This document shows positions 25,119 through 50,700 of a stretch of DNA of 64,000 bases, in pieces. A program made the translations under genes and the position numbers. Positions within the stretch are counted from its first letter, which is position 1. Each line of letters starts with the position of its first letter. The notes beneath the pieces are model-generated. The model had not been told where the DNA came from and did not search any database. It saw nothing but the letters and a program-made list of their open reading frames with translations. Origin of the DNA: Onchidella celtica (Eukaryota; Mollusca; Gastropoda; Systellommatophora; Onchidiidae); NCBI GenBank assembly GCA_963931925.1, contig OZ007571.1, positions 11,339,160 through 11,403,159 of the forward strand. Direction: 5' to 3'.

Positions 25119-28100
25119 CGGGGAGATCTAGTGCAATACTATTTCAACTTTTTTGTTTCTCTTCCATACTACAAAGCCTGCCCAAACGGAAGGTATGGTC
25201 AGGGCTGTGAAGAAACTTGCAGTGAACATTGTGTTGGTGAGGCAATGTGCAATCCAGTCAATGGTTCATGTCTCCAGGGGTGTAAGTCTGGCTATACCTC
25301 ACCCCAGTGTGATACAGGTAAGTATGTGGATAAGCATAATACCCCCCCCCCCTCCAGGTGGTTTATTGCAAAATTACAAATACTCTCATCAGATATTCTA
25401 TTTTTATTTGGTGAAGACAAGAAACTTATAGCTGACACCGAAGACAATTTGTATCGAAAGAAATTGATAAAACCAGTGAGGAATAATACTACTTCTGTGA
25501 ATTATATTATACAATCTAAGTACAGAGAGAAAGAAAGAGAGGGATACAGAGAGAAAAAGAGAGAGAATGTATGTTTATGATGTATGTGCGTGTATATGAG
25601 AGAGAAGAGAAGAACGAAGAGAGACGCAGAAAGACAAAGAGAGAGAGAGAGAGAGAGAGAGAAACAGATAGGGAGAGAGAGAGATATAATTTTATTGCTG
25701 CATTTTATCGCAATGACCCATTGAATTTCATCAACACAAATTAATATTAATTTTGATCATTCAAATTTCTGACACATTGATTGTAACCTTGGTGTTTTTC
25801 TCTTACTCATTGAAGTGTGCCCTAACAAGACCTATGGTCCAGGCTGCAACATGACTTGTAGTGCTAATTGTAAAGTGAATGAGACCTTAGCACCGTCCGT
25901 GTGTGACCATGTCATAGGTCGTTGTATTCTGGGATGCATCAATGATACTGCTGCTGATGAATGTTCACGTCTTCCTGTCACTGGATCAAGTCAGTAACAA
26001 ATCACCTTCCTTTATTCACTGTCATGCTTCCTGATATTTGTATATCATACTCTGATGTCTCTGCAGATCATTTTCAAATTTGTATTTTATATTAAACTAT
26101 ACTTTATCTCCCTAAATATATTGAAAATAGTCTTGACCAACAATGTTTCTTTGTTTGTCACTTCTCATTTCTTTTTCCGCATGACCAGGGGTTTAAAGTG
26201 TGACTTAAGCATAAAGTAACACATTAGAGTACATGAATCTTTTATCCAGTGCTAATTCAGTGTTTATCGTGTACTATGTAACCTGGCATGTAAGACTGTG
26301 AACAGCTGATAAAATACTACACCCGTGCAGTATTATTTCATCTTTTATTCTTTCAAGATAAAAAGATCCCTTGAGTGCTCCGATACAAAATCCAAATGTC
26401 CTCACGAAAATATTTGATGAGGAGGAAGCAATCATACCTGACGTCGCGGAATGTTGGCATTTGTGAAAGTTTACAGTGCCAGTGAAGAATAATTTTTCTG
26501 TGAATTTTTTATTAGCAAAGTATCTGGTAACCCAAGGGTGGGTAATCAGAGACTCCCATGCCCCAGGCGGCTCTTTCAGCTTTCATCTGGGACTCTCCTT
26601 TCCTGAAATGGCAGTAAAAAAAAAATCTGTAGATGGAAAAACAATACTACTGATATAACAAATGTGGAATTTAGTGCTTGTTTTGGCTCACGCTAAAGTT
26701 GAATTCTATCGAAAATTTTAAACACGGTTCTCCTTATAAACTGAAAGGGTACCTGCCCCCAATACACACAATCACACTTGATGGAGTTCAAGATTCCACA
26801 GGACAGTTAAGGTGCAGTTTCTAAGGACAGCAAGTCAACAATGAGCAGATGAGGATAAATTTCCGTCATAGTCTCTTTGTACAAAATCTTGTTATTTTAG
26901 CAATGACGAACGTGGAGACAAAGACATCAGATTTCCCTCTTGTGGCTAGTCTTTACCTTCGTGTCCAGTTCATGTGTGAGGACGCTGTATAAGAACCAAG
27001 GCTATGCTCTTACTCCAGGGTCAACCCCATCCCCTTCCTTTCCAGTCTGGCAATGGGCCAGCACCTGGAAGGTTTTGAAATATGGGTTTGATTCCTAAGT
27101 GCATTGTTTGTAAAAAAAAAATACTACTTTTTGCAAACGGCAACTATATTACAACGTTCATGACTTTTGCAGAATGGAACTTTCGTAGATGTGCAACAAT
27201 TATTTGTCTTTTTAATCATTATTAATTGAGCTCCTTAATATCTTGAGTGAGGTGAAGATGATAGCGATCATCATGTAGAATGTTTTTGTAGTTTTTATTT
27301 TTGCCTTCAGCGACAGACGACAGTGATGGCACAGAATTAGTTATAGGTCTTGTCATGGCTGCTGTGGTAGTTTTACTCCTAGCCGTCATTCTTGCTGTGA
27401 TTTTCTGGAGGTATGTTATTGTTTTACATGTTCATTTGTGAACAAATAAGTATGAGATTTTGATAATTTAATTCACTATTTCAAAAAATGGTAGATTATA
27501 GTGAATGATAACCATCACTATAATGATCTAAAATATTGTTTGGGCATAAGATTGTCAAAATGAGCTTGAACCGACTGTTAAATGGGAACTTCTTAAGATT
27601 GAAATAAAATTTTTCTGTGTACAGTATTCAAACACAAAGAACCAGCTCAGGAAAAATAAAGAACGGGAATTAGAACGGGAGATTGAAAGGACAAATAAGC
27701 AGTTACTGGCAGAACCTAACAATCAAAACTTACAAAAACAAATGGCAATCCTTAAACAGACTTTAGAAATATTTCTGCTACATAAAGCAAGAGGGGCCCA
27801 GATAAGGTCGAGAGTTAAGTGGATAGAGCAGGGTGAAAAAAACACAAAATACTTTTTATCACTAGAAAAGAGGAACGGAATTGTAAACACAATATATGAA
27901 TTAAGGGTAAAGGATAACGTCTTTAAAAAACCGTTAGACATATTGGATCAGATCCGACAGTTTTTTGAGGGTCTGTATAGGAAAGATAGTATAGAGATGG
28001 AAGGAAAGACATTATTGAATGGCTATCTGGAAAACACTGAATATCCAATACTAGACGAAGGCGAAAAAGAACTAATGGAAAAAGATATTACAGTAGAAGA

Positions 28101-31100
28101 TATGGGAAACGCATTATCTAAACTTAACAATGAGTCAGCACCTGGGAGTGATGGACTTACGACTCCCTTCTATAAATGTTTTTGGTCTCGACTTAAAACA
28201 TTGCTATGGGAAAGCCTATCATATTCAGTTAGAAAGGGAGAACTTACAGCCACTCAAAAAAGGGGAGTAATCACATTAATACATAAGGGAAACAATCTAG
28301 AGAGGAATAACATAAACAACTGGAGACCAGTGAGTCTTACCAACACAGATTATAAAATCTTTTCTAAATGTCTAGCCTTAAAACTCCAGAGGGTCATGGA
28401 TAAACTCATACATTGCAATCAGGTAGGTTTTATTAAAGGCAGATCTATTACGAATTTGATTCGTACTATAGATGACTGTTTGACTTTAGCAAGGGAGGGA
28501 GAGGGTGGGGCAGGCATTTTGGTCTCACTGGATTTCCAAAAGGCCTTCGATAGTATTGAAAAAAAAGCAATTATATATGCACTTGAAACCTTCAACTTTG
28601 GTAATAACTTTATTCAATATGTCAAAACATTGATACGGAGTACAGAGAGCTGTGTAAAAAATGGGGGCTGGGTCTCCAAATGGTTCAATACAGAACGTGG
28701 AGTGAGGCAAGGCTGCTGTGTCAGTCCTCTACTGTTTATTTTGGTGGCAGAAATTATGGCCATCAAGATAAGACATAATCCAGATATCAAGTGTATACAA
28801 ATGGAAAATACTCTGAATCATAAACTGCTCCAGTACGCAGATGACGTAACATTGATGTTAAACCATACTGATGACCTGAGAGAAGCTCTCAGAGACATCG
28901 CAGCATTTGGAGAATTTTCAGGGTTGAAATTAAATAAGAACAAATGTAAAGGGATGGAAATAGGAGACGGGAATATGAAAACTTGTGATATGGGAATTTC
29001 GTGGGTCAACAAGGGAGATAACATGAAAATACTGGGCATTTACTTCAATGCTGATAAAGAAATATCCTGTGTGGAAGAGAATTGGAAAGAAAGGGTAAGG
29101 AAACTTGAAGAAATCATCCAAAGATGGAAAAGACGCAATTTATCATGTTATGGTAAAGTAACTGTGGTAAAGAGCTTACTACTATCACAATTGAGCTATA
29201 TAGTACAATCAGTAAGTCTGCCACAAAACATACTACAAGAAATAGACTCTAAGATATTTAAATTCATCTGGCAGAAAAAATATTCAAATAAGAAAGCATT
29301 TGAGAAGGTAAAAAGAAATGTAATTTGCAAAGAATTGTCTGAAGGAGGATTGGGTATGATTAGTATAAAGGACCAACAGAAAATATTCCTAATGAAGTGG
29401 ATGAAATGGCTGACATCGAAAGGCAATAGGACGAATGAAAGCCACATAAACACCTCTGAACATTTCTTCTCACAGTTTGGGGGTAGCAAATACTTTGTAG
29501 AAAGTAATTTCAGCCTTAAACATAAGGCAAAAATAAACACTATCACATCTTTGTTCTGGCGAACTGTAGCCAGTGCCTGGATAGAAGCAAAGGACACAAA
29601 AGTAATTGTTAGTGACACGGACAACATGTCACTACAGGAATTGTTAAATCAACCCTTGTTTGATAATAAGTTGTTCCAATATAAAAGAGACCTCCTTTTC
29701 TTCCCGAAATGGATCAAGGCAAATATAAGATATATACATGACGTGTGGAGCGAGAGAGGAATAATCAATGATAAATGCCTTCACAGAAAACCAGAGAACG
29801 CTTTTAGGCAGTGTTACAAGGAACATGATTAGGGAAGCAAAAGAGACAGCTTGTAAGCTTCCTGAATATATTGAATGTTTCTTTGCCAAAACTAATAAAC
29901 AAATAAGAAATAGATTTCTAAACAGTAGAGAAGGCACTAGTTGTGGAGTTGGCTTCTGGAAAAGAAAGCTTGATATCGATGTCACAAAATATTTTATGGT
30001 AGCAAAAAATTCATCTAGGGAAAGTAGACTTAGGCTTCTTCACTTTAAATTAATCCATAATATCTACCCTACCAATATATTACTTACAAGATTAGGAATA
30101 AAATCATCAGAAAAATGTGCTTATTGTAATGAAAGAGACTACATAGAGCATTTCTTCTTTTACTGTAAGAAAATCAGGGGATTTTGGAATCATATAGCCA
30201 ATGTCATTCTTATGAAAACGGGCCATAAATTAATCATGAACGAGGTGACAGCACTCTTTGGAATAGTGAAAAAAGATTGTAACGAATGTACAAGTAAGAA
30301 AATAAATACTATAAATCATATTATATTAGTGGCCAAGCTATGTATAAGTAAGCTGAAATATGGAACCATGAATAATATTTTCCATATCTTTGAAATAGAA
30401 TGGAAGCATAGAGAACATTTCATCGAATAGTTATTATTTGTACGCCACGAGATGTCTCAGTATCCTTAACTCATCTCAGGCTCCATTAACGTTAAATATG
30501 AATGGAAATTTTATTGTATGAGCGAGTGAAATAGAGATAAAGAAAAAAAAAAAAAAAAAGGGCAATGACGAAAAGATGAAAAATGCAACAAATTTTGGTA
30601 TTCCAATGTGCATGAAAGTAAAGTTATTCCACGGTCACTTTTTATTTTTTATATTCTGGTACTGATAATATTATATTATTATTATTTGGTTAGAAAATTG
30701 GCAGACTTTTTTTTTTTTTTTTTTACTGTTTTGTTTTCCTTGTCTCGATTGACTCTATTATGCATCACATCTGCATTAATTATAGTATAGATGACTCATC
30801 CTCTTAGTATTTAAAACCATTGGGAACACACTTAGCACATGGAAGACAGATTTATTTTATTTTATATTTTTTCTGAAATGTCTGTCTGTTCTTTTAATCT
30901 GTATTTTTAAAACTTCTGCTCAGGTTTATTATATATATTTACTGATTATTATTATGATTGGCTTGTGTTTGTATTGCTACAGTACCAGCTGTTTAAAACT
31001 GAACTCTAAAACTGATCAGCTGATAATGTTAAAGACCTAGAGGGTTCGAGAAGGCCGACAACACAGAATTCAGTAGTTAACAATTCTGGGATATAAAAGA

Positions 31101-34100: not shown

Positions 34101-37100
34101 TCGCATGCAAAAAGTTGTTAAGTTGTTCTAATGTCGTTGTTTGTTTGTTTATTTGATAAATAGCTTTTGCCATACATTTTCCATAAGATGATACCAACGC
34201 ATTTATTTTTTTTCCCGAGCTCATTATACTTGTTTTGTTGCTTCTGTTTTTTTGGGTACCTCATAATTAGCAAGAAAGTTTAACTTGTTAAGTCTGGTTA
34301 TGTTTAGACAATACTGTCTGTACTTTGACATCCCCTTAGTTGCCTTTTTCGTATTTTGTTTTAGTTGCTGCTTGTTTTCAAATAGCACAGTAGTTACTTC
34401 TTCAGGTAACAGTAATTATGACAGTCATATTCAGTGAGTTTCTACCTTTTCTTTTGTTTTGTACTTTCAACGTTTATAATTTTATTGTAGATACTGGCGC
34501 ATGCCTGCTGGACTAGTACTATTTTGATTCATCTTTAGATTATGTTCTCAGACAAGAGGAAATTAAAGATGAACCTATACATCCTAATTAATTATATGAA
34601 TATTGAATGAATGACTCCTTGATGTGCATTTTACTGTTATTTAGAAAGTGCCGGGCATCATTGAGAGATTTACCATGGACGTGGGACTTAGTGATGAGAA
34701 CAAATGCAAGAACAAATACAAGAATATTTGTCCATGTAAGTTTTTCATTCATCGGATGTAACAGAACACGATTGTGATCCTCCCAATGGCTTTCAATTAT
34801 TTCATCTGTCTAAGGTTCTAGCATGGCTTTAAATTGTTAGCCACAGACTCAACGCTTTAAAAAACATAATATTATGTACATTGCTTATTATGACTAATGT
34901 ATTGGTGCACTCTAGAAATACATTAAGATATATTAGGATATTGGCTTGTTTTGGGATTCAGAATAGTTTAAATTTTTCATTCAGAGGTCAGATATATGTA
35001 ATATCTAACAACTCTTAAAGTTCCTTCTCTGCTATTTCTTTGGATCATAATGACAAGAAAGTCCACCTAATCATGAAACATGAATATACGCAATCATTGC
35101 TTTGGAGGTCTATGAATTAGTCGGGGCAAAAGCTTCCCGTGTGTACGGGAGGAGGATCAACTTTAAAAGCATTGCTGAAAGGAGGAAATGAGAGCGTCTT
35201 TCTTTCAGACTTGTCAGGTACAGTGCTGTCTGTCAGGAGAATTTCTTTCCTTATACAAACACGAACGTTACACAAATAAAATTAAGATTTCTTTCTTTCA
35301 ATGAGGCTAAGTATTTCTGATGAGAATTTACTTCGTCCTTTTTAGTACCAGTACCACTTCCTACAGACAGTTTAGTCTTAACATTTTAATGACAGCGCCC
35401 TCTTTCTTCAGGAATGTTTTTAAACGCATTGAATAAGCTCAGAGTGGCAGTCTTAAATTCAATGACTGTAAAAAAAAAAGTCTTACAGTTGTTTTTCTTT
35501 GACAACAAAAGTTATTTGCATAAAATTAATGTTCTACTTTTCAAAGATGACCATTCTCGTGTCCACCTGAAGATAAATCGGAACAGACATGAAGGCGACT
35601 ACATCAATGCATCATATGTGGAGGTAATAATTACATTTCTTATGATAATCCCACGTTTATTGTTATTGTTGTTGCATTGTTATTATCATATTATTTTCAA
35701 TGTTGCCATTTGCTGTTGAAAAGAAACATAATTTAAGATGTGTGTGTGCGTGTGTATGTGCGTGTGTGTGTGCATGCGTGTGTACCACATGCCACAAAAA
35801 ATGAACTGCATCTCTTCATATTTTCTCTTTTTGATAGAATAGATTGCATTTGTTAAACTATGCTCTTAATCATTACTTCACAAAACAACAAAATTCACAA
35901 ACATGTTTCCTTCCATTGAGAATCCATTTGGACCCTACTACACAGGTTTTTCATCATTTCTTTGAGTGGTCAAATTTTATTGTCAACGTGTATATCATAG
36001 CACTGTTTTAGACATGGTACAGTACCTGTAGTCATCAGGCTTTTCTTTTCTACAGTGTCATGATTCGGATATTATTAAAACTCACGCAGAGAGTGAGTTG
36101 TTGTTGTTTACCAGGGCCATGAGAAATTGGCTGGTGGCCTTGAACGGTCCTCGCGAAATTATAGTTGGTGAGTAAATAAATGTAAAGTTAAACTGTTAGA
36201 TTCACGCTTGTGGGTTTTAATGTTCGTGATTAATAAGTAATGGAGTAGGGGTGAAACAAGGTGGGGACAGTTGACATTGTTAAGTATGACTAGACAAGTT
36301 TTGCACGTTAACTGGCTGGTAGAATAGTGCAGACGTATTACTACAGTTAAAATGGTGGGAGGTTTCGACCTATGAGATAGCTGAACTAATTGGGCCAGCG
36401 GACTAGCACGCTGGGTAGTTAGATAGTATATAACATCGTGTAACGTTCAGATTTAGTGAATACAGACGAGAGAAGCATCGTTTCGTGAAGTATCTCCGGT
36501 TGGCCAGTACCTGAACTGTGTGGTCTGAAGACTAAGAAGTCCTTGCTAACGGACTGACTGAGCTCTCGAAAGAAAGGTCTGAGTGGGCTGACCTTTGAAA
36601 GCCCACGCTGCGCTATTTTGATGTTCGCGCCTCTCAGTAGGCGTGAGCAATGGTAATATATCTTAATTATTCAAGTATAATAGAGATCGGAGATAGAGAG
36701 AGAACTACAGCCTCATAGGAAGACTAAGGAAACCCCAGCTGGCACTCGACCACGAGTGTCCTGTATGATAGATCTATTGCCATAGTATGATTGGAATAAT
36801 ATAGCACATTGTTGATGAATTGAATAGTGATTGTGCATAAAATATAGTCTTTTGGCAACTGCTTAAATTACCTACAAGCCGAAGAGTGCTTCTGTAGGCT
36901 TTGAACGTACTGGGCTCTCCTAACATTTAAGCCCATATGATTTATGGAGAGTTTGCCTGGCGACTGGCCAGTGGCGACTCAACTGTCACTTTAAATTGAT
37001 ATCCAGTTTCGTATAATATACCTATTTACTATTGATTGCAGTACCTCCATAGTTACATGAATATCATTGGTTAAGTTATTAATTAGAGTTTTTGGTTTGA

Positions 37101-40100
37101 ATATATACCTCTATTGTCTTTTGTTTTGTTATTAATATTTATGTAAACTATGGCCTGACCGGCCTGACATATATACGCTCTCGTTATTTAGTACTTTTCT
37201 TGTGTGGTAGTGTCCGAGTGTGAGTTAGCTGCCTCTCGTGCAGTCGTAACATCCCCAAGACCCTAACTCTGCTCGTGACATCTGGAGGGGACCCCACTGA
37301 CATCTGAAGAGGACCCGTCACCTTCTGACATCTAGAGAACACTACTATCATCGGAAGAGGACCCCGTCAACAGCTGCAGGTCTACCACTCTAAGACTCCA
37401 CTGTTATTTATGTAATTTTTGTAGTTTATAGTTTTGTATACTGCTGATTTTTTTGTTTTTGTTTCTCCCCCACATGTCTGGCATGTCCTCTCGTCATTGA
37501 TCCTGGGACCACTACGAGGGACTGACAGCTAGCATCAGGAAAAGACAAGACCAGCGCTGTGGACCAAAGGAAAGAGCCAGTCCATTTTGCCCAGTTAAGT
37601 GAACCATCTGTATTTGTCTTCGTTTGAGGGGTTCGTCGTTCCAGCTCCCCTACTTTTGACAGGCATTATTTTTTTCTTTTGTATTAGATTAGATAGGCGG
37701 GAGGTTGGAAGGGATCGAGACTCAGCATACCTCTTTTTGCCAGACTAGCAGATCTAGATGGCGTTTAAAACGGATAGGAGATACGCTTTGCCTTGAATAG
37801 TTCTGTAGGGACCTGTTATTCGTATAGATTGTTAGCGTTCTATCTTCCTCGTATTTTAGGAAGACGTCTCTCCTGTTCTTTTTCTTACCTTTTTGTAGAT
37901 AGTTTCAGGTTAGTCAGGTCTGTTGTCGTTTATTTCTGTTAGTCTCGTCTTACTCTCCATGTAATTCTTTTCCATTATAGTGTTGCATTATTATATTTTG
38001 TATTCATACTTGCTATATTATTGCCTGGGATAAATCACGTGTCTAGGGCACGTTGAGAGATAATCTGGATATTAGAGTTGTTAGGCTGGTATAGCCAAGG
38101 AAGTTCATATCGTGAATATTGATTTATTCCGATTTATAGCAGAGGGAACGCTGCTAGGAGTGTACGGAAAATACACTGGGAATATTACATTGGTATCGTT
38201 AGTAACGACCAATCACGGAAGCAGTAGACTCACTGCTTGAGGATTAGGAGAAATAAGTGGAGTTAAGTGATCACTGAGATAGCTCAACCACTACTTGGTT
38301 GACTAAGACGTACAGTTTGTTGTTGATTTCGTTAATTTCGTTCATACTGCAGGAACGAGCACCCGCAGAGTGCAATTGATAAATTGCTTCAAGGGAGAAT
38401 AAAGTTGGAGATTTTTCAGGAGCTGTCCTCGATTAGGACATTATTATATCGTATTATCGACCGATATCATGGCCGAACTACAGAAATATTTGGAACTGGC
38501 CCAATCATTTGGCATACCGGAAGCTCAGCGTGCTTCTTGGGTAGACCAGAAACTGAAAGAAGAACGAGAAGAAAAGGCCGCGGAGAGATTACGAGAAGAA
38601 AAGGCCGCGGAGAGATTACGAGAAGAAAAGGCCGCGGAGAGATTACGAGAAGAAAAGGCCGCGGAGAGATTACGAGAAGAAAAAGCCGCGGAACGAGAAG
38701 ATAGAGCCGCGGAACGCGCGGAAAAACAGGCTCAAAGAGAGTACGAGCTCGCTTTGAAACAGTTAGAAGCGAAGCAAGCCCAACCTACCGGGGCTCCGGA
38801 AGTTACTTCCAATAATAAAACGAAGCCTAAATTGCCAACCTTTAATGATAAGGTTGATCGTATTGATTCCTACCTACACCGCTTCGAACTCCATGCCGTT
38901 TGCGCGGGGTGGCAGCGTAGTGAGTACACGTCATGCCTCGCCAATCTTTTGACAGGGAGAGCGTTGGAAGTTTTCCATAGCCTCACTATTGATGACGCTA
39001 GGGACTATGACATTCTAAAGACCGCGCTATTAAAGCGTTTCCAACATACGGAAGATGGATTTCATAAGCGTTTCCGCGATTGCAAGCCGGAGGCATCTGA
39101 GAATTTCTCTACTTACGTGGACCGCCTCCGCCACCTACTCAGCCGTTGGACTGAGTTGGCCGGTGTGGAAGAGGGAAACTATAAGAAACTATATGATTTG
39201 ATAATTAAAGACCAAATATATATGTCCTGCCACACGGACCTGGTGGCGCATTTTAAGGAACAAGCCCCCAAAACTACCGTCGAGATAACATCGATAGCGG
39301 AACGGTATGCTGCAGCTCACCCTAATCGATCGTTAGCTAAAGCTAAAGTAAACGAACCGTGTTACGCCGGCGCTGCTACTAAGACACCGGTACCGTCGAG
39401 ACAATCAAGACAGCCCTTTCGACAGTCGCCGCAGGTTCGTCCACGGTCCGAGCCGCCGGTTAGCAGGAGGCAACCGAATCCCCATAAATTTTCTCGGGAC
39501 TGGGAACCCCGATATACACGTCCTTTCCCTACCGGAGGACCGCGTAACAACTACTATCAAGCGCCCACATTTCCTTCTTATCGAGGTACACCTCGAAGGG
39601 ATGATAATCCAGTCTACTGTTATAGATGTGGCGCCGGAGGCCACATTGCGCGACAATGCAGAGTTAGATTAGATGCGGCAAATGCATGCTCTGTAGCATT
39701 CACCGAAAACCGCGGTTACAGAACTAGGAATGCCGAAACCGTAGATAAAGTTATTCCAGTGATGTCCGCCCTCCACGAGCGAGGCGCGCTGACATTGTAT
39801 GAGGGACGAGTAAACGCCATACGAGCATCCGTATTGCGAGATTCAGGCTGTACGACCGTCGGTGTACGTGAATCCCTGGTCCGTCCTGCACAACTCCTGG
39901 ATCGCGATGCGACTTGCATTACTTTTGGTGGTTCAGTTGAACATTTTCGTTTGGCGGAAATATATGTTGACACACCGTTTATAACTGGTGTTGTCACGGC
40001 CTGCGTGCTACCAAATCCGGTCGCCGACCTAATCATTGGGAATATTCCCCACTTAAAGGACGTCTCCGATTGCGAACTCGGGATTTGGGATGATAACGAC

Positions 40101-43100
40101 ATTGCGTGTGTCACGACAAGACAACAATCGCGTCGCCAGAATGACGACACATTACGATCGCCTGTCGTCGATTTGGATGTAACCCCCGAGATTTTTCGTA
40201 ACGAACAGCGCACAGATCCATCACTAAAGCCCCTCTTTGCTAAGATTGATCCGGACAACCCGGATACATCCAGGTTCTGCCTTAAAGACGACCTCCTATA
40301 TCGCGTTTTTCGGGGAAAGCGCGAAACTATTTTGCAATTGGTCATACCGAGATCATTTCGCCGAGACATCACCCGCCTCGCGCACGACACGCCATTGGCG
40401 GGCCACCAAGGCAAAGCGAGAACAAAATCGAGAGTCCTGTCTCAGTTTTTTTGGCCCGGGGTTTACGGGGACATAAATAGCTATGTGTCGCGTTGCGATA
40501 CATGCCAGAAAAGAACCCCCAAAGGAAAAACTTCGCGGGCGCCTATACAAGAGATGCCGCCGGTTTCCACTCCATTTCAGCGAGTTGCCGTCGACATCGT
40601 CGGGCCATTACCGAAGTCGGATAGAGGCCATCGGTTTATTCTATCAGTAATCGATTATGCCACCCGTTGGCCTGAGGCTGTCCCTTTAAAGGAAATATCG
40701 GCCGATCACGTCGCCGAGGCATTGGTGACCATATTCACACGTGTCGGATTCCCGTCCGAATTATTATCTGATAGAGGTCCGCAATTCACCTCTGACCTTT
40801 TCAGGAAAGTATTGGAACTCACGGGCATTAGGCAGAAACTTACGTCGCCATACCATCCACAGTCCAATGGCTGTTGCGAGCGCTGGAATGCCACCATGAA
40901 AGCTATGCTGGCACGCGTTTCCGCCGATAGACCTGGTGACTGGGACCGTCGACTTCCGGCCATCTTGTTCGCATATAGGGAACTCCCAAATGCGACAACG
41001 GGTTTTTCCCCGTTTGAACTGTTATACGGTCGAAAACCACGTGGCCCGATGGCCATTTTACGCGATTTATACGCCGGTTCTGATACCGACGTTCCTGATA
41101 CGCGATCCGCGTATCAGTACATAGTCGATCTCCGACATAGAATAGTTAATGCATGCGACCTGGCTCGACAATTTGCATGCGTACGGACCAGGTCATTTAT
41201 AGGATATCGCGATCGGGGTAGTCGGTTAAGAACCCTGTCAGTCGGAGATCGGGCATTGGTGCTGTTACCAGAAACGAATAACAAACTACTCCTCACTTGG
41301 AAAGGCCCCTTTCTAGTTAAAAAGCGACTCTCGAGAGTTAATTATCTCATTACCATACGTGGTAACGATAAGGTGTACCATATTAATATGTTGAAAAAGT
41401 ATCTTACCGATGATCAAACTCATCACGATCATTCATGCCATGTTGTGGCCCAAGCAAACGCAGCGATGGTCACTATCGATGACAACGACCGGGAGCCATT
41501 ATCTATGACAAGATCGCTCCTATCCTTGCAAGCCACAGAGGACGCGACTTCCGTTAATATCAATCCAGAGCTGGATCAAAGTAAGACACAGGACATCATG
41601 AATCTTGTTCGGGAGTTTTCGCCAGTATTCACTGATTTGCCGGGTAAAACATCCTTAGTTCAACACGTCATCCGGTTGCACTCGGACGTACCCGTGTTTG
41701 TCAAACCCTACCCGCGCCCGCTGCAAGCGCACGACACCATACAGTCCGAGGTGGAAAAGATGCTCAGCTTAGGAGTCATTGAGCGCTCGACGAGCCCTTA
41801 CTGCTCGCCGATTGTACTAGTAAAGAAAACAGACGGTTCCGTTAGATTTTGTATCGATTACAGGAAGCTTAACGCTCTAACCATTTACGATGCTGAACCT
41901 ATCCCGAATCAGGAAGATCTATTTGCGCGATTGGCCGAGTCGTCCGTGTTTTCGAAAATAGATTTGGCTAAAGGCTACTGGCAAATCCCAATGGAAGAGG
42001 CCAGTAAACAGTACACAGCGTTTCAGACCCCTATGGGTCTCATGCAATGGAGATTCATGCCATTCGGTCTCGTAACGGCACCAGCGACATTTGCGAGGAT
42101 GATGAACATCCTATTGCAGCAGACACCATGCGTCCTAAGCTACTTTGACGACATTTGCGCTTTCCATACGGATTGGAAAGGCCACTTAGAAGCACTTCGT
42201 CAAGTGCTTAGTAAACTTCGAGATGCCGGGCTTACAGCTAAGCCTAGCAAAGTCTTCCTGGGTTATACGCAGATTAACTTTCTGGGACATACTATCGCCA
42301 AAGGCGTCCAAACACCGGACGACAGTAAGATAAGTAAGATTTTAAAACTCCAGGCTCCTCATACTAAGAAGCAGGTTCGTAGCCTGTTAGGCTTCTTAAG
42401 CTATTATCGGAAATTTGTTCCTAATTTTTCGGCCCTTACGGCCCCGTTATCCGATCTTACAAGAAAAGACAGACCCAACAAAATTACCTGGAATACGCAG
42501 TGCGCCACCGCGCTCGCGACAGTGCAGCAACTGTTCTCCAGTTCGCCGCTGCTTATACTACCGAATATTAGGCGCACCTTCACCGTCCGAACTGACGCGT
42601 CGGACCAGGGAATTGGAGCTGTTTTGCTTCAGGAAAGAGATGGCTTATTGCGCCCTTGTATGTACGCTAGCCGGAAATTACTTCCGAGAGAGCAGAGATA
42701 CGCTATTATAGAGCGAGAATGCCTGGCGATTGTATACGCCGTAGACGCGTTTTCCCGCTACCTACTTATGACAGAATTCGTCATCGAGACAGACCATAAA
42801 CCGTTGTTATTTTTAAAATCGAACCGAGCCAAGAACGCTCGTTTGACCAGATGGAGTCTGGCCCTTCAGGAATACCGCTTCATTATAAAGGCCATTCCTG
42901 GTGGAGATAATGTCCATGCCGACCTATTATCACGGTTACCTTAATCTTGTTGTATTTTAGTCTGTCATATGTATTGGCGTTGGATACTGATTAGCACCTC
43001 ATTCAGAGACCGAGGGATGGTATCACATATTGTTCACCCATTGTGAACACTTTTCACCTACCCCTGTGCTTTCCTTTGTTCCAACAGCTATTTTACTGAC

Positions 43101-46100
43101 GTCGACCCGTATTTTGGCCACACCAGACGTTGTTGCCCAGGGTCGAGGACGAGAAGATCATGGCAGACCAGGAGTCCAGATCCACTAATGCCATCGATGC
43201 TACTATAGTTATCTTTTCTTGAGTATTATTCATTGTATGTATGCATTCCTGATGACATTCGCACAGGATCAGTGTTGTACTCTAAAATTTTAGAGTTATG
43301 ATTGTTAATGTCTACCTATTTAGAGGTAAGATTTAATCCTCAGAGAGATATATACTTTTGGACGGAGCCTTAAGATTTTCATGAAGTTTTGTCCATCAAT
43401 GATACCCGTCCTGTAGGTTTTTTTCAACTTTAGTACTAGTCTTAGTTATTACCTAGTATTCTTAGTTAAGTTAACCTTTCGAGCAATTTCTCGACTCATG
43501 CCTTCCCTTTACGATAATAATTTATATCGTTAAAATTGCAAATTTTAACTGGGGTGGGGGATGTGTCATGATTCGGATATTATTAAAACTCACGCAGAGA
43601 GTGAGTTGTTGTTGTTTACCAGGGCCATGAGAAATTGGCTGGTGGCCTTGAACGGTCCTCGCGAAATTATAGTTGGTGAGTAAATAAATGTAAAGTTAAA
43701 CTGTTAGATTCACGCTTGTGGGTTTTAATGTTCGTGATTAATAAGTAATGGAGTAGGGGTGAAACAAGGTGGGGACAGTTGACATTGTTAAGTATGACTA
43801 GACAAGTTTTGCACGTTAACTGGCTGGTAGAATAGTGCAGACGTATTACTACAGTTAAAATGGTGGGAGGTTTCGACCTATGAGATAGCTGAACTAATTG
43901 GGCCAGCGGACTAGCACGCTGGGTAGTTAGATAGTATATAACATCGTGTAACGTTCAGATTTAGTGAATACAGACGAGAGAAGCATCGTTTCGTGAAGTA
44001 TCTCCGGTTGGCCAGTACCTGAACTGTGTGGTCTGAAGACTAAGAAGTCCTTGCTAACGGACTGACTGAGCTCTCGAAAGAAAGGTCTGAGTGGGCTGAC
44101 CTTTGAAAGCCCACGCTGCGCTATTTTGATGTTCGCGCCTCTCAGTAGGCGTGAGCAATGGTAATATATCTTAATTATTCAAGTATAATAGAGATCGGAG
44201 ATAGAGAGAGAACTACAGCCTCATAGGAAGACTAAGGAAACCCCAGCTGGCACTCGACCACGAGTGTCCTGTATGATAGATCTATTGCCATAGTATGATT
44301 GGAATAATATAGCACATTGTTGATGAATTGAATAGTGATTGTGCATAAAATATAGTCTTTTGGCAACTGCTTAAATTACCTACAAGCCGAAGAGTGCTTC
44401 TGTAGGCTTTGAACGTACTGGGCTCTCCTAACATTTAAGCCCATATGATTTATGGAGAGTTTGCCTGGCGACTGGCCAGTGGCGACTCAACTGTCACTTT
44501 AAATTGATATCCAGTTTCGTATAATATACCTATTTACTATTGATTGCAGTACCTCCATAGTTACATGAATATCATTGGTTAAGTTATTAATTAGAGTTTT
44601 TGGTTTGAATATATACCTCTATTGTCTTTTGTTTTGTTATTAATATTTATGTAAACTATGGCCTGACCGGCCTGACATATATACGCTCTCGTTATTTAGT
44701 ACTTTTCTTGTGTGGTAGTGTCCGAGTGTGAGTTAGCTGCCTCTCGTGCAGTCGTAACATCCCCAAGACCCTAACTCTGCTCGTGACATACAGGGCTACA
44801 ACAATGAAGAGAAATATATTGCATCCCAAGGTCAATATAAATGTTTGCATTTTTACATTATTATTTGCCATGTATTAGGACCATGTAGACATGTTTAGGA
44901 TATAAGTGTCAAACCAAAACCATAATATTCTGTTATTACTTGATCATTTCGCAAATTACTTGATTTAAAAACAGACATTTGCCACTCTAAGACTGGCTCA
45001 AAATGCATTTGGAATAAGAAGAAGCAAATATTAATACTTTCTTGTTTTCAACATGTTATAATTATCATATAATCAGTGTGTGGGCAATCTTACCTTATAC
45101 ATGCATTCATTATTTCAATAGTTCATCAGTTTGTCATAGAGCAAGTATCACTGTTCATCTTCAGTCCTGGGTTGTAATAGCTTCAAGATATACACTGAAT
45201 CTAGTTACGAGTGAACAACTCACCTTTACACTTATTCATCCATATTACTATATTATTATACAATAGTATGTGTTTATGCCAAGTTAAGTACAAGGAATGT
45301 ATTTCCATACTACTGCAGCACCTAACCAGCTTATGCTTGACGATTTCATCCGGATGTTGTGGGAGCAAAAACCCGACAAAGTGGTGATGTTGACCAACCT
45401 GATTGAAGAAGGAAAGGTCTGATCATTTTCTCTTGCATTTTATTATGGCAAGAGAAAAATGTAGCTGTATCATTTTGTTATTTCGAAGACGAGAACCACG
45501 TTAAAATATGCTACAATGCAGTGTATATTTTGTCAATATCGTCTTACTCCAATTTAAAATACGAAAAGTCCTCTTCTCATATGATGCCAAATTCATGTTA
45601 GTTTTCACTAGAGCAGGTGGTATTTAGCTTTTTTGAAACATGCCACAAGAATAAGTTCCTCTGCAGTCTCATTATAGCCTCCAATAATGCACAAAGGCCC
45701 AGGCCAGCAGTTTTCCCTTTCTTGCTCACATGTGGGACTATACTACAGGGTGTGCTCTGGTGCCTATACCGTAGCCTATTGTGGCCAATTCTCAGTCTGG
45801 TGATCACTGTCTGTTTTCTCCTGTCCAATGTGTGTATGGCAGTGTGTGAAGTAAGAAAACGAGGTCTTTTATTATTTCTGGAATGAATACTTTGCTGTTT
45901 TTAGTTTGACAAATTTCTCTCAGACACACACTTATCCTGTGCTGGCAAAGGACTTAAGATATCATGAGAAAGAGACAGTTTCAAAGTTGACTTAGCTCAG
46001 CAGTACATTAGCTGCAATGACAATATGCTGGGTATTGTTTATAGGTGAAATTCACTGGCCAATAGTGTAGAATTATGACAATATAATAGTGAAAACAATG

Positions 46101-47728: not shown

Positions 47729-50700
47729 TTAATTATAAATTTCACAGTAACTTGATGTTTAAATAATAATAAGTTTCTAGCCTCCTTAATCTTTGATTCA
47801 AATTTTGCAGTATGAATTTTAATGTTAGAATTTCCCTTTACTTTGAGTGGGCAAAAACTAGTAGAAATTATTTTCATTGGCTATATAATTCAGATGGACG
47901 GATGAGTTTTATTGACGAGAGAAATACTCCCCCTCCGCCATATACACATCCTATGTCTTCAGACAACTTTATTCATGTCTACATCGGAAGATACTTCTCC
48001 ACAAACATCTAAACATATTTTTTTTTTATTATGGTATTCTTTGAACAGGTCAGGTGTGAGCAATATTGGCCAGACGATGGGGAAATCGTGGTCGGTGGAA
48101 TTTCCATAGAACTTCAAACTACACATGTTTTTGCTGACTACACAATCAGAAAACTTTGTCTGAGCAAGGTGTGTATTTCTATAACACGTGGACATGTATG
48201 GATCTGTGTAAATGAAAGATTTCGTTGACACTTCACAGTCAAATAAGATTGAAGGCTAAGTCAGACAAATGTATTCATTCCATTGTGCAGAAAAAAGCAA
48301 GTCACAACTTGACCCAGTTCCACTTCACCTCCTGGCCAGACAAAGGTGTTCCCGACACGCCCTGGCCACTGGTAGATTTTGAACAACGAGTTGCCTCGTG
48401 CCCAACCACCAAACCTATCGTTGTGCATTGCAGGTGAGTCTCCTTGATACATGATGGAGTATTTCAGTATGTTTCTTTCATGGGGTCCACAATGGGTAAT
48501 GTGTCATTCTGTGTGAGCTTGTGCAGATCATTTATCATTTTCGATCATCATGTTTGTGTTGAGCGGAAAAACCGGGTTTTATACTAAAATGGTGCCATTT
48601 TGGCCATACCTAAGTCGAAAATTGTTAGATCAAATAAAATGAGTGCATGGTGTTAACAGATCTCCAGAGAACACATATTTATTGTGTTTTTGAGATCAGT
48701 ATTTGGATGACTGACCGGAAGATAATAGTTTTCCTTTGTGTTTTGCTAGGACCCATTATAAACTGCAACCTTGACGTATTTGTTCATTAGTTTCTGCTGG
48801 TAATAATTGGCAGGCAAAGCGGACACCACTATTGTCCACCCGTGAACAATGCGGGGGGTGGGGTGGGTGGTGTAAATATATTTACGATAAATCAAAATAC
48901 AATTACATGGGTCACTCCCCCAAAATTGCCAACAGTTTTCAAGGGAAGTCAAATTTTTATTAGCTCAAAGTGTCATCAGCACTAGTTACGCCTCTGCTGC
49001 TCTCTCAGAAATTGATTATAGTTGTCAAGAAACGCTTAACATTGCATGAATCTGTTTGATAATAATTATTAATTACAATGCCGATTCAAACATGGTCATA
49101 CCAGAACACGATAAATGAGGTGCTATGATATTAAATGACATTAAGTTTTTTATGGTCAGTGCTGGTGTGGGACGCACTGGAACATTCATTGCTCTACATC
49201 ATGTGATGAGAGAGGCAGAAGACAAAATTACAATGGATTTCTACTCAACACTGGAAAAACTAAGAAATGCCAGGATGAACATGATACAAACCCTGGTAAG
49301 CTTTGTCAAATTTTGAGACCAAATATTGTTCACACTATTACAATGTGAGTGGTAGTAATTTTCCTTCGCTAAACGACGTACAAGGATGAAACAGACTTTA
49401 GATTTGGAAGAATCGCAATGACATCCAGAAATTAATACCATGCAGAGAAATTATTGATATATCACAAATCTTGCTCATTTGTGAGATCGTTATACAAGTT
49501 TCAATGTTGAGTAAAAGAAACCATTTATGTTATATCCTATGGACAAGTTTATAATTGTCCTGTTCTGAAACTACATGAATAAACATTCCACACTGCAATC
49601 GTTTCTCTCGGACAACTGCCTTTGATTATTCCTTGTCTATGTGATCTTGTCTTCCACATTCTCATCCTGCAGGATCAATACATATTTCTGCATAGAGCTG
49701 CCTATGTGGCAATGATCTGTCAGGGTACAACCGTGACGGCCAGCAAGAGCACAGACAGACTTGAAAAGTTGCAAACATTGTCATCAACAGGGCAAAGTAA
49801 CATGGAGTCTGAATTTGAAGTAAATGTTCATATAGTTAGTCCTTATAATTGCTTCACAGCTTTCTGCATTCTCATAGATTTGTAATAGATTTGGGAATTT
49901 TATTCAGTTTACTAACATCACAACAACAATGTTATTGAAGGGCACAGTAGTTTGGCATGTTTTCATTCTTCATCTAAGGCATTATCAATACTTCATCATT
50001 TTAATTATTCTGATACGATGTTTAAAAAAAATCAGTCCCTTAAACATTAATACTAAGATCTTCAGCAAATGCACATAATTTATTTTTACACTTGTTTTCT
50101 TACATTTTAACCTAAAACTAGGCAGTGCGCAGCGCTTGCTCTGTAGACATCACCACAGTCTTGGACCAGAGCACAGGATCTGATGACGTCACTGAAAATG
50201 TTTATGAGAATAGCCGAACAGCTGATAACAAGCTCAAGAATCGAGTTCATAACATTCTACCAAGTGAGTGGAATGAAAGTACCGGTCGTTGTAAATTTAT
50301 ATGTCTATGCGGTCTGGCATTTCAAATTTTTGCACCATAATAGTTTGACTGACAAAATATAATCTGCAGTACACACCAGTAGAATAAAGTCAATGAATTT
50401 ATGGCAGGCCGCATGATTTTTTTCGTACGAGCTCTACGAGCAGGGAAGCAACACACCCCCAAACACAGATCATCGGCTAAATCTGCCAGGACAAACTATA
50501 ATGAAAATATGCATTCCTTAACAAACCGCAAGACACAGACTGGCTGAGTCAAAGCTGGAGTTCCCTAATTTTAACACAATAACCAGTGACATGTTTAAAA
50601 TTATTTTACACCAGAACGACCCGATGCAGAGTAAAAGAGAATTTTGAGACTGGTTTATATTATGTATTAGTCTATGGACCAACATCCAGCTCAGTATCCA

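Follow-up and report, generated by a model that had tools for sequence, protein, structure and literature searches.

What becomes of an exon when a retrotransposon lands exactly on its splice acceptor and duplicates it? The question is raised by a 64,000-nucleotide stretch of the genome of the gastropod Onchidella celtica (GenBank assembly GCA_963931925.1, contig OZ007571.1, positions 11,339,160 to 11,403,159 of the forward strand; hereafter the window), in which a long terminal repeat (LTR) retrotransposon interrupts a receptor-type protein tyrosine phosphatase (PTP) gene. A young copy of the element integrated in sense orientation, and its 5-bp staggered cut coincided precisely with the 3' splice site in front of the 37-nt exon 17. 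As read from the two junctions, the acceptor was split: its left copy still has the pyrimidine tract of the host but leads into LTR sequence, and its right copy is left with LTR-end sequence only. A segment of the LTR may now stand in for exon 17.

The element is bounded by two LTRs of identical sequence, each running from TGTCA to TGACA (TG...CA termini), and is flanked on both sides by the target-site duplication (TSD) TACAG, which is itself the acceptor of exon 17 (Table 1). The left junction reads cttttcttttcTACAG followed by TGTCATG, and the right junction reads ctctgctcgtgacaTACAG followed by GGCTACAAC. The empty site is found in a tandem paralogue, L009, located about 87 kb downstream and colinear with the window copy on either side of the insertion; there, a single TACAG (positions 1728-1732) stands in the context cttttcttttcTACAG followed directly by GGCTACAAC. 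An earlier note on this DNA had placed an LTR retrotransposon on the acceptor, with correct coordinates, and had equated the duplication with the acceptor, as the paralogue's single copy confirms. Misjoins are conceivable in a high-copy family with near-identical LTRs. An assembly artefact at the LTR junctions is nevertheless strongly disfavoured because a paralogue in the same genome carries the empty site with one TACAG, matching the 5-bp duplication. The intact termini, the colinear flanks and the five substitutions between the window LTR and its closest counterpart in the set read also make an artefact highly improbable.

The element encodes a single gag-pol open reading frame (ORF) with domains above the Pfam cut-offs in the order H2C2 (626-684), rve (702-797), RVT_1 (1118-1276) and RNase H (1341-1469). 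It also carries a CCHC knuckle, and its capsid-like matches fall below the cut-offs. No env-like ORF of at least 150 aa was seen, the sole other listed ORF of that size lying on the minus strand inside gag-pol, and a tRNA search gave no primer-binding match within the window. The arrangement with integrase upstream of reverse transcriptase (RT), as here, is that given for the Gmr1 clade of Ty3/gypsy in two sources, where a 5-bp TSD is also the commonest length among the elements of an annelid study (PMC6238403, PMC8220671). On this domain order, the element is best labelled a Gmr1-like Ty3/gypsy retrotransposon. Within gag, a 27-bp tandem repeat (38564-38692, 4.8 copies) encodes a repeated charged nonapeptide.

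The element belongs to a recent, high-copy family. Across the genome searched (1.14 Gb in 43 contigs), the exact 3' terminus of the LTR occurs 3,545 times. Thirty LTRs were read; these were the first of 40 scored matches from 1,004 first-look candidates, and hence the most similar ones. Their last 40 bases are identical in all 30. Both host flanks were available for 15 insertions among them, with an exact 5-bp TSD in 14 and a TSD with one mismatch in the remaining one (L031/L032). Twelve LTR pairs could be compared: eight show no substitution, three show one, and one shows four plus gaps. For the window copy, zero differences over 1,225 bp place the insertion at less than ∼0.25-0.6 million years ago, if the rate is taken as 5e-9 to 2e-9 per site and year. 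Two further arrangements were seen in the family on contig C1. Five LTR ends at 3,812-bp spacing (23644868-23660133) look like a tandem array with shared LTRs, and two LTRs lying 54 nt apart with the TSD outside (L029 and L030, 69157806-69160309) resemble a nearly empty, non-autonomous derivative.

The interrupted gene carries the D1 motifs and the HCSAGxGRTG loop of a receptor-type PTP. Exons 16-22 encode the first phosphatase domain (D1), whose best solved relative is PTPRA, and the catalytic loop spans the exon 20/21 junction. EGF-like exons, read as separate exons, lie upstream. A protein search of the genome returned 151 exon-level matches, many of them on contig C5 at 3.3-4.2 and 11.2-13.5 Mb, with further matches on C1, C2, C4, C6, C8, C10, C11 and C15 among the matches listed. 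The two C5 regions have the appearance of a large receptor-PTP cluster, some matches containing internal stops. Eight relatives (L009 and L074-L080) were read from a longer list of matches. Exon 17 looks like a real exon because all eight carry it at 37 nt with a T-rich tract and a YAG acceptor.

The same relatives bear on the exon 17 donor. Position +5 is G in all eight and A in the window copy (GTCAAT, 44831-44836); the A is therefore probably derived. It weakens exon 17 of this copy a second time, independently of the split acceptor.

Acceptor strength was scored with a 27-column matrix built from 17 native acceptors of the host gene, a small and local set. The empty site scores 10.1, the left copy 8.5 and the right copy -7.1 (-4.4 and -2.3 at larger pseudocounts); at all three pseudocounts the right copy falls below all 17 native sites, evaluated leave-one-out. 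Of 601 AGs in the intron as lengthened by the element, the left one takes rank 3 and the right one rank 435. The earlier note had described a left acceptor with its tract and a weak right acceptor, both of which stand. Its further claim that the right AG is without a tract holds only in part, since the LTR end supplies a CTAAC whose last base is 18 nt from the exon and whose A is 19 nt from the end of the intron, and positions -20 to -4 contain 10 pyrimidines out of 17. There is no AG between this CTAAC and the AG of the right TSD.

These features could allow the right AG to be used, in which case the element would be spliced out within a 9.2-kb intron and the protein would be unchanged. The next AG after CTAAC is that of the TSD, the LTR end adds a short pyrimidine run, 4 of the 17 native sites have no more than 10 pyrimidines themselves, and the G at +1 is retained. 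A model for such a rescue is Drosophila vermilion with retrotransposon 412, said to have been described by Fridell et al. in 1990, where an LTR element is reportedly handled by the spliceosome; that insertion is exonic, unlike the present one. The low score and rank of the right AG argue against this outcome, as do the weak exon 17 donor and two LTR AGs just upstream (44751 and 44767), both of which outscore the right AG and the first of which opens on TCG TAA. Ready rescue of exon 17 through CTAAC was favoured at first and was lowered on the matrix scores and ranks; it now seems unlikely.

The left AG opens onto an LTR segment that ends at a GTGAGT donor. With a predicted U1 pairing of -10.8 kcal/mol, this donor is joint first with its 3' LTR twin among the 541 GTs between 35801 and 44900. 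Values for native donors lie between -3.3 and -12.2 kcal/mol, and the exon 17 donor pairs at -4.1 kcal/mol, versus -8.4 in L009. Every one of the 30 LTRs read has the donor word, 25 of them at offset 112 and the other 5 at offset 110.

Reading frames distinguish the possible products, and the three fates that the earlier note had named for this allele (disabled, mis-spliced or rescued) all keep some probability. Splicing from exon 16 to exon 17 through the right AG gives the normal frame. If splicing goes through the left AG and the LTR donor is joined to exon 18, the message stays in frame because 112 and 37 share the same remainder modulo 3; it is open through exon 22, with 37 LTR codons replacing GYNNEEKYIASQ. 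The same donor joined to exon 19 leads to an early stop. Skipping exon 17 alone shifts the frame, as the earlier note had stated for this 37-bp exon, and brings a stop before the catalytic Cys. Leaving out exon 18 along with exon 17 keeps the frame.

Reading through the LTR from the left AG gives 39 LTR codons and then an in-frame TAA, just ahead of the sole AATAAA of the LTR. The message could then end within the sense-oriented element, and the product would be a membrane receptor without phosphatase domains. The strong donor 8 nt ahead of the candidate AATAAA counts against this outcome; bound U1 can suppress nearby poly(A) signals. Termination of this type is a frequent mode of mouse IAP and ETn insertions (PMC6466679). 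We consider truncation as the principal outcome improbable here.

The favoured reading is exon replacement, in which the spliceosome would choose the left AG with its intact host tract, and the LTR donor 112 nt onward would be recognised and joined to exon 18. The LTR segment is predicted to prevail over exon 17, which would be bypassed because it is short, has a poor acceptor and carries A at +5 of its donor. The message would stay in frame, 37 LTR codons taking over from the 12 codons of exon 17, and some truncated product would accompany it. The protein would be a receptor of full length whose D1 is disrupted and probably inactive. Inactivity is the expected consequence because, in the alignment with PTPRA, the replaced residues fall on INGYQEKNKFIAAQG. 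We put the probability that the LTR exon substitutes for exon 17 in this way, with a damaged D1 and some truncated product, at roughly 45%. More tentatively, this may be a case of a conserved 37-nt exon swapped in frame in one of two linked paralogues, the tandem sister keeping the old exon.

Several observations weigh against exon replacement. Two AGs, at 38352 inside the element and at 35842 in the native intron, outscore the left AG, so the acceptor matrix alone cannot decide which site is used; the matrix was, moreover, built on 17 acceptors only. The right site has its CTAAC, and its pyrimidine content lies within the native range. In U1 pairing, the native exon 18 and exon 22 donors (-4.3 and -3.3 kcal/mol) are as weak as that of exon 17. 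If the LTR donor were joined to exon 17 instead of exon 18, a stop would follow within exon 17, and the AATAAA 8 nt past the LTR donor could terminate the message.

The insertion might also have no effect that matters, if this paralogue is little expressed or is losing function. A large cluster of relatives, the derived A at +5 of the exon 17 donor and the internal stops in the matches of some relatives are consistent with a silent or decaying copy. Exons 16-22 remain open, however, and over their 253 codons the window copy differs from L009 at 9 amino acids, with 15 codons differing synonymously and 9 non-synonymously, which makes a silent or decaying copy quite unlikely.

The earlier note had considered a duplication that equals a splice acceptor to be rare, an assessment that genome-wide counts do not uphold. 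LTR starts that match exactly and follow a host-like flank numbered 1,427 when the base at -5 was other than G, or ∼1,770 when scaled by base composition. The acceptor-like flank Y9-N-YAG occurs once among these ∼1,770 left ends, in the window copy, and the same word has a frequency of 2.4e-4 per base and strand in host sequence (43 in 178,812), giving ∼0.4 expected. We see no targeting: with one observed versus ∼0.4 expected genome-wide, there is no excess at acceptor-like sites, the coincidence needs no targeting, and chance alone would yield such a match in about one of three families of this size. Targeting of acceptors by the element was rejected on these counts.

Other site statistics were also compiled. 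TSDs ending in AG number 282, out of a total of right ends with host flanks estimated at 2,700-2,900, which is 1.65-1.77 times the AG frequency in the window; at the 98 distinct sites of one listing, all on C1, there are 5, without excess. These 98 sites show preferences for T at position 2 and A at position 7, with few A at position 5 and almost no G at position 8; the window insertion site is without the preferred bases at positions 2 and 7. The only other exact copy with the LTR end plus TACAG, at C13:5626205, is followed by stops in all three downstream frames within 50 codons.

Retroelements at splice acceptors are already known, and the window case is a further example, with a good but imperfect internal control. 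In canine merle, a short interspersed element (SINE) lies at the PMEL intron 10/exon 11 boundary with a 15-bp TSD in the original acceptor (PMC7349775). As here, the TSD is at and includes the acceptor, and the merle element offers a competing acceptor; it differs in being a SINE in reverse orientation whose poly(T) serves as the tract, whereas the window element is a sense LTR element that leaves the tract of the host beside the left TSD copy. The IAP of mouse Spta1 sph-Dem is also a sense LTR element at an intron/exon junction (intron 10/exon 11), but its reported outcome is exon skipping, and the likeness is one of junction location; ETn insertions in mouse introns have a sense LTR segment exonised between an acceptor and a donor or poly(A) signal further on, with an acceptor that belongs to the LTR and not, as here, to the host (both PMC6466679). 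Introners likewise draw splice sites from a TSD, but make new introns where the present element lengthened an existing one (PMC9860276); L009 has the intron without the element. A literature search for an LTR element whose duplication equals the acceptor returned the merle and mouse cases and no identical LTR case, which leaves absence from print unproven. Beyond the earlier note, the analysis adds the LTR donor 112 nt in, the A at +5, the empty-site paralogue, the in-frame loss of exon 17 together with exon 18, and the published precedents.

Table 1. Coordinates, within the window, of the element, the split acceptor and the host exons (a slash marks a splice junction).
Feature	Position	Strand	Basis
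Host exon 16 of PTP D1, length 77 nt, phase 0 at its end, donor GAG/GTAATA	35547..35623	+	Frame; PTPRA-like
Native pyrimidine tract and acceptor, including left TSD copy TACAG (36051-36055)	36040..36055	+	Sequence; single copy in paralogue L009
Complete LTR retrotransposon	36056-44788	+	Paired LTRs, TSD, gag-pol ORF
5' LTR, 1,225 bp	36056..37280	+	Identical to 3' LTR
Predicted LTR exon, 112 nt, open in host frame, donor TTG/GTGAGT	36056..36167	+	Frame, U1 pairing, 30/30 LTRs
In-frame TAA (36173) and AATAAA (36175), sole AATAAA of the LTR	36173..36180	+	Sequence
Single gag-pol ORF of 1,491 aa with integrase ahead of RT and RNase H	38469..42944	+	ORF list, Pfam matches
3' LTR, 1,225 bp, terminus with CTAAC (A at 44774)	43564..44788	+	Identical to 5' LTR
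Right TSD copy TACAG, acceptor immediately 5' of exon 17	44789..44793	+	Sequence
Host exon 17, 37 nt, GYNNEEKYIASQ, donor AAG/GTCAAT	44794..44830	+	Frame; paralogues
Host exon 18, 98 nt, to which the LTR donor is predicted to be joined	45319..45416	+	Frame
Host exons 19-22, catalytic loop VVHC/SAGVGRTG	48049-48168, 48291-48433, 49160-49295, 49673-49819	+	Frame

Two further features of the window lie outside the split exon. The second PTP domain (D2, 54515-54742) reads IVHCSILFGYRNGANYSG and is probably a pseudophosphatase because this loop departs from the canonical PTP motif C(X)5R. Between the EGF-like and PTP exons, long RT-like ORFs in two overlapping frames (27550-29832 and 29765-30430) are apparently a non-LTR element, a label given by eye.

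If exon replacement is true, one transposition exchanged an exon, placing an LTR-encoded stretch in D1 of a full-length receptor. An acceptor AG and its tract have been parted from the exon they served, and a close paralogue with the empty site provides an internal control, imperfect in that it differs also at the exon 17 donor. The split acceptor is predicted to yield distinct, countable RNA products, which supports the usefulness of the locus as the natural test of acceptor choice that the earlier note had seen in it. The case would show how a single transposition could exchange an exon in frame within an expanded receptor family.

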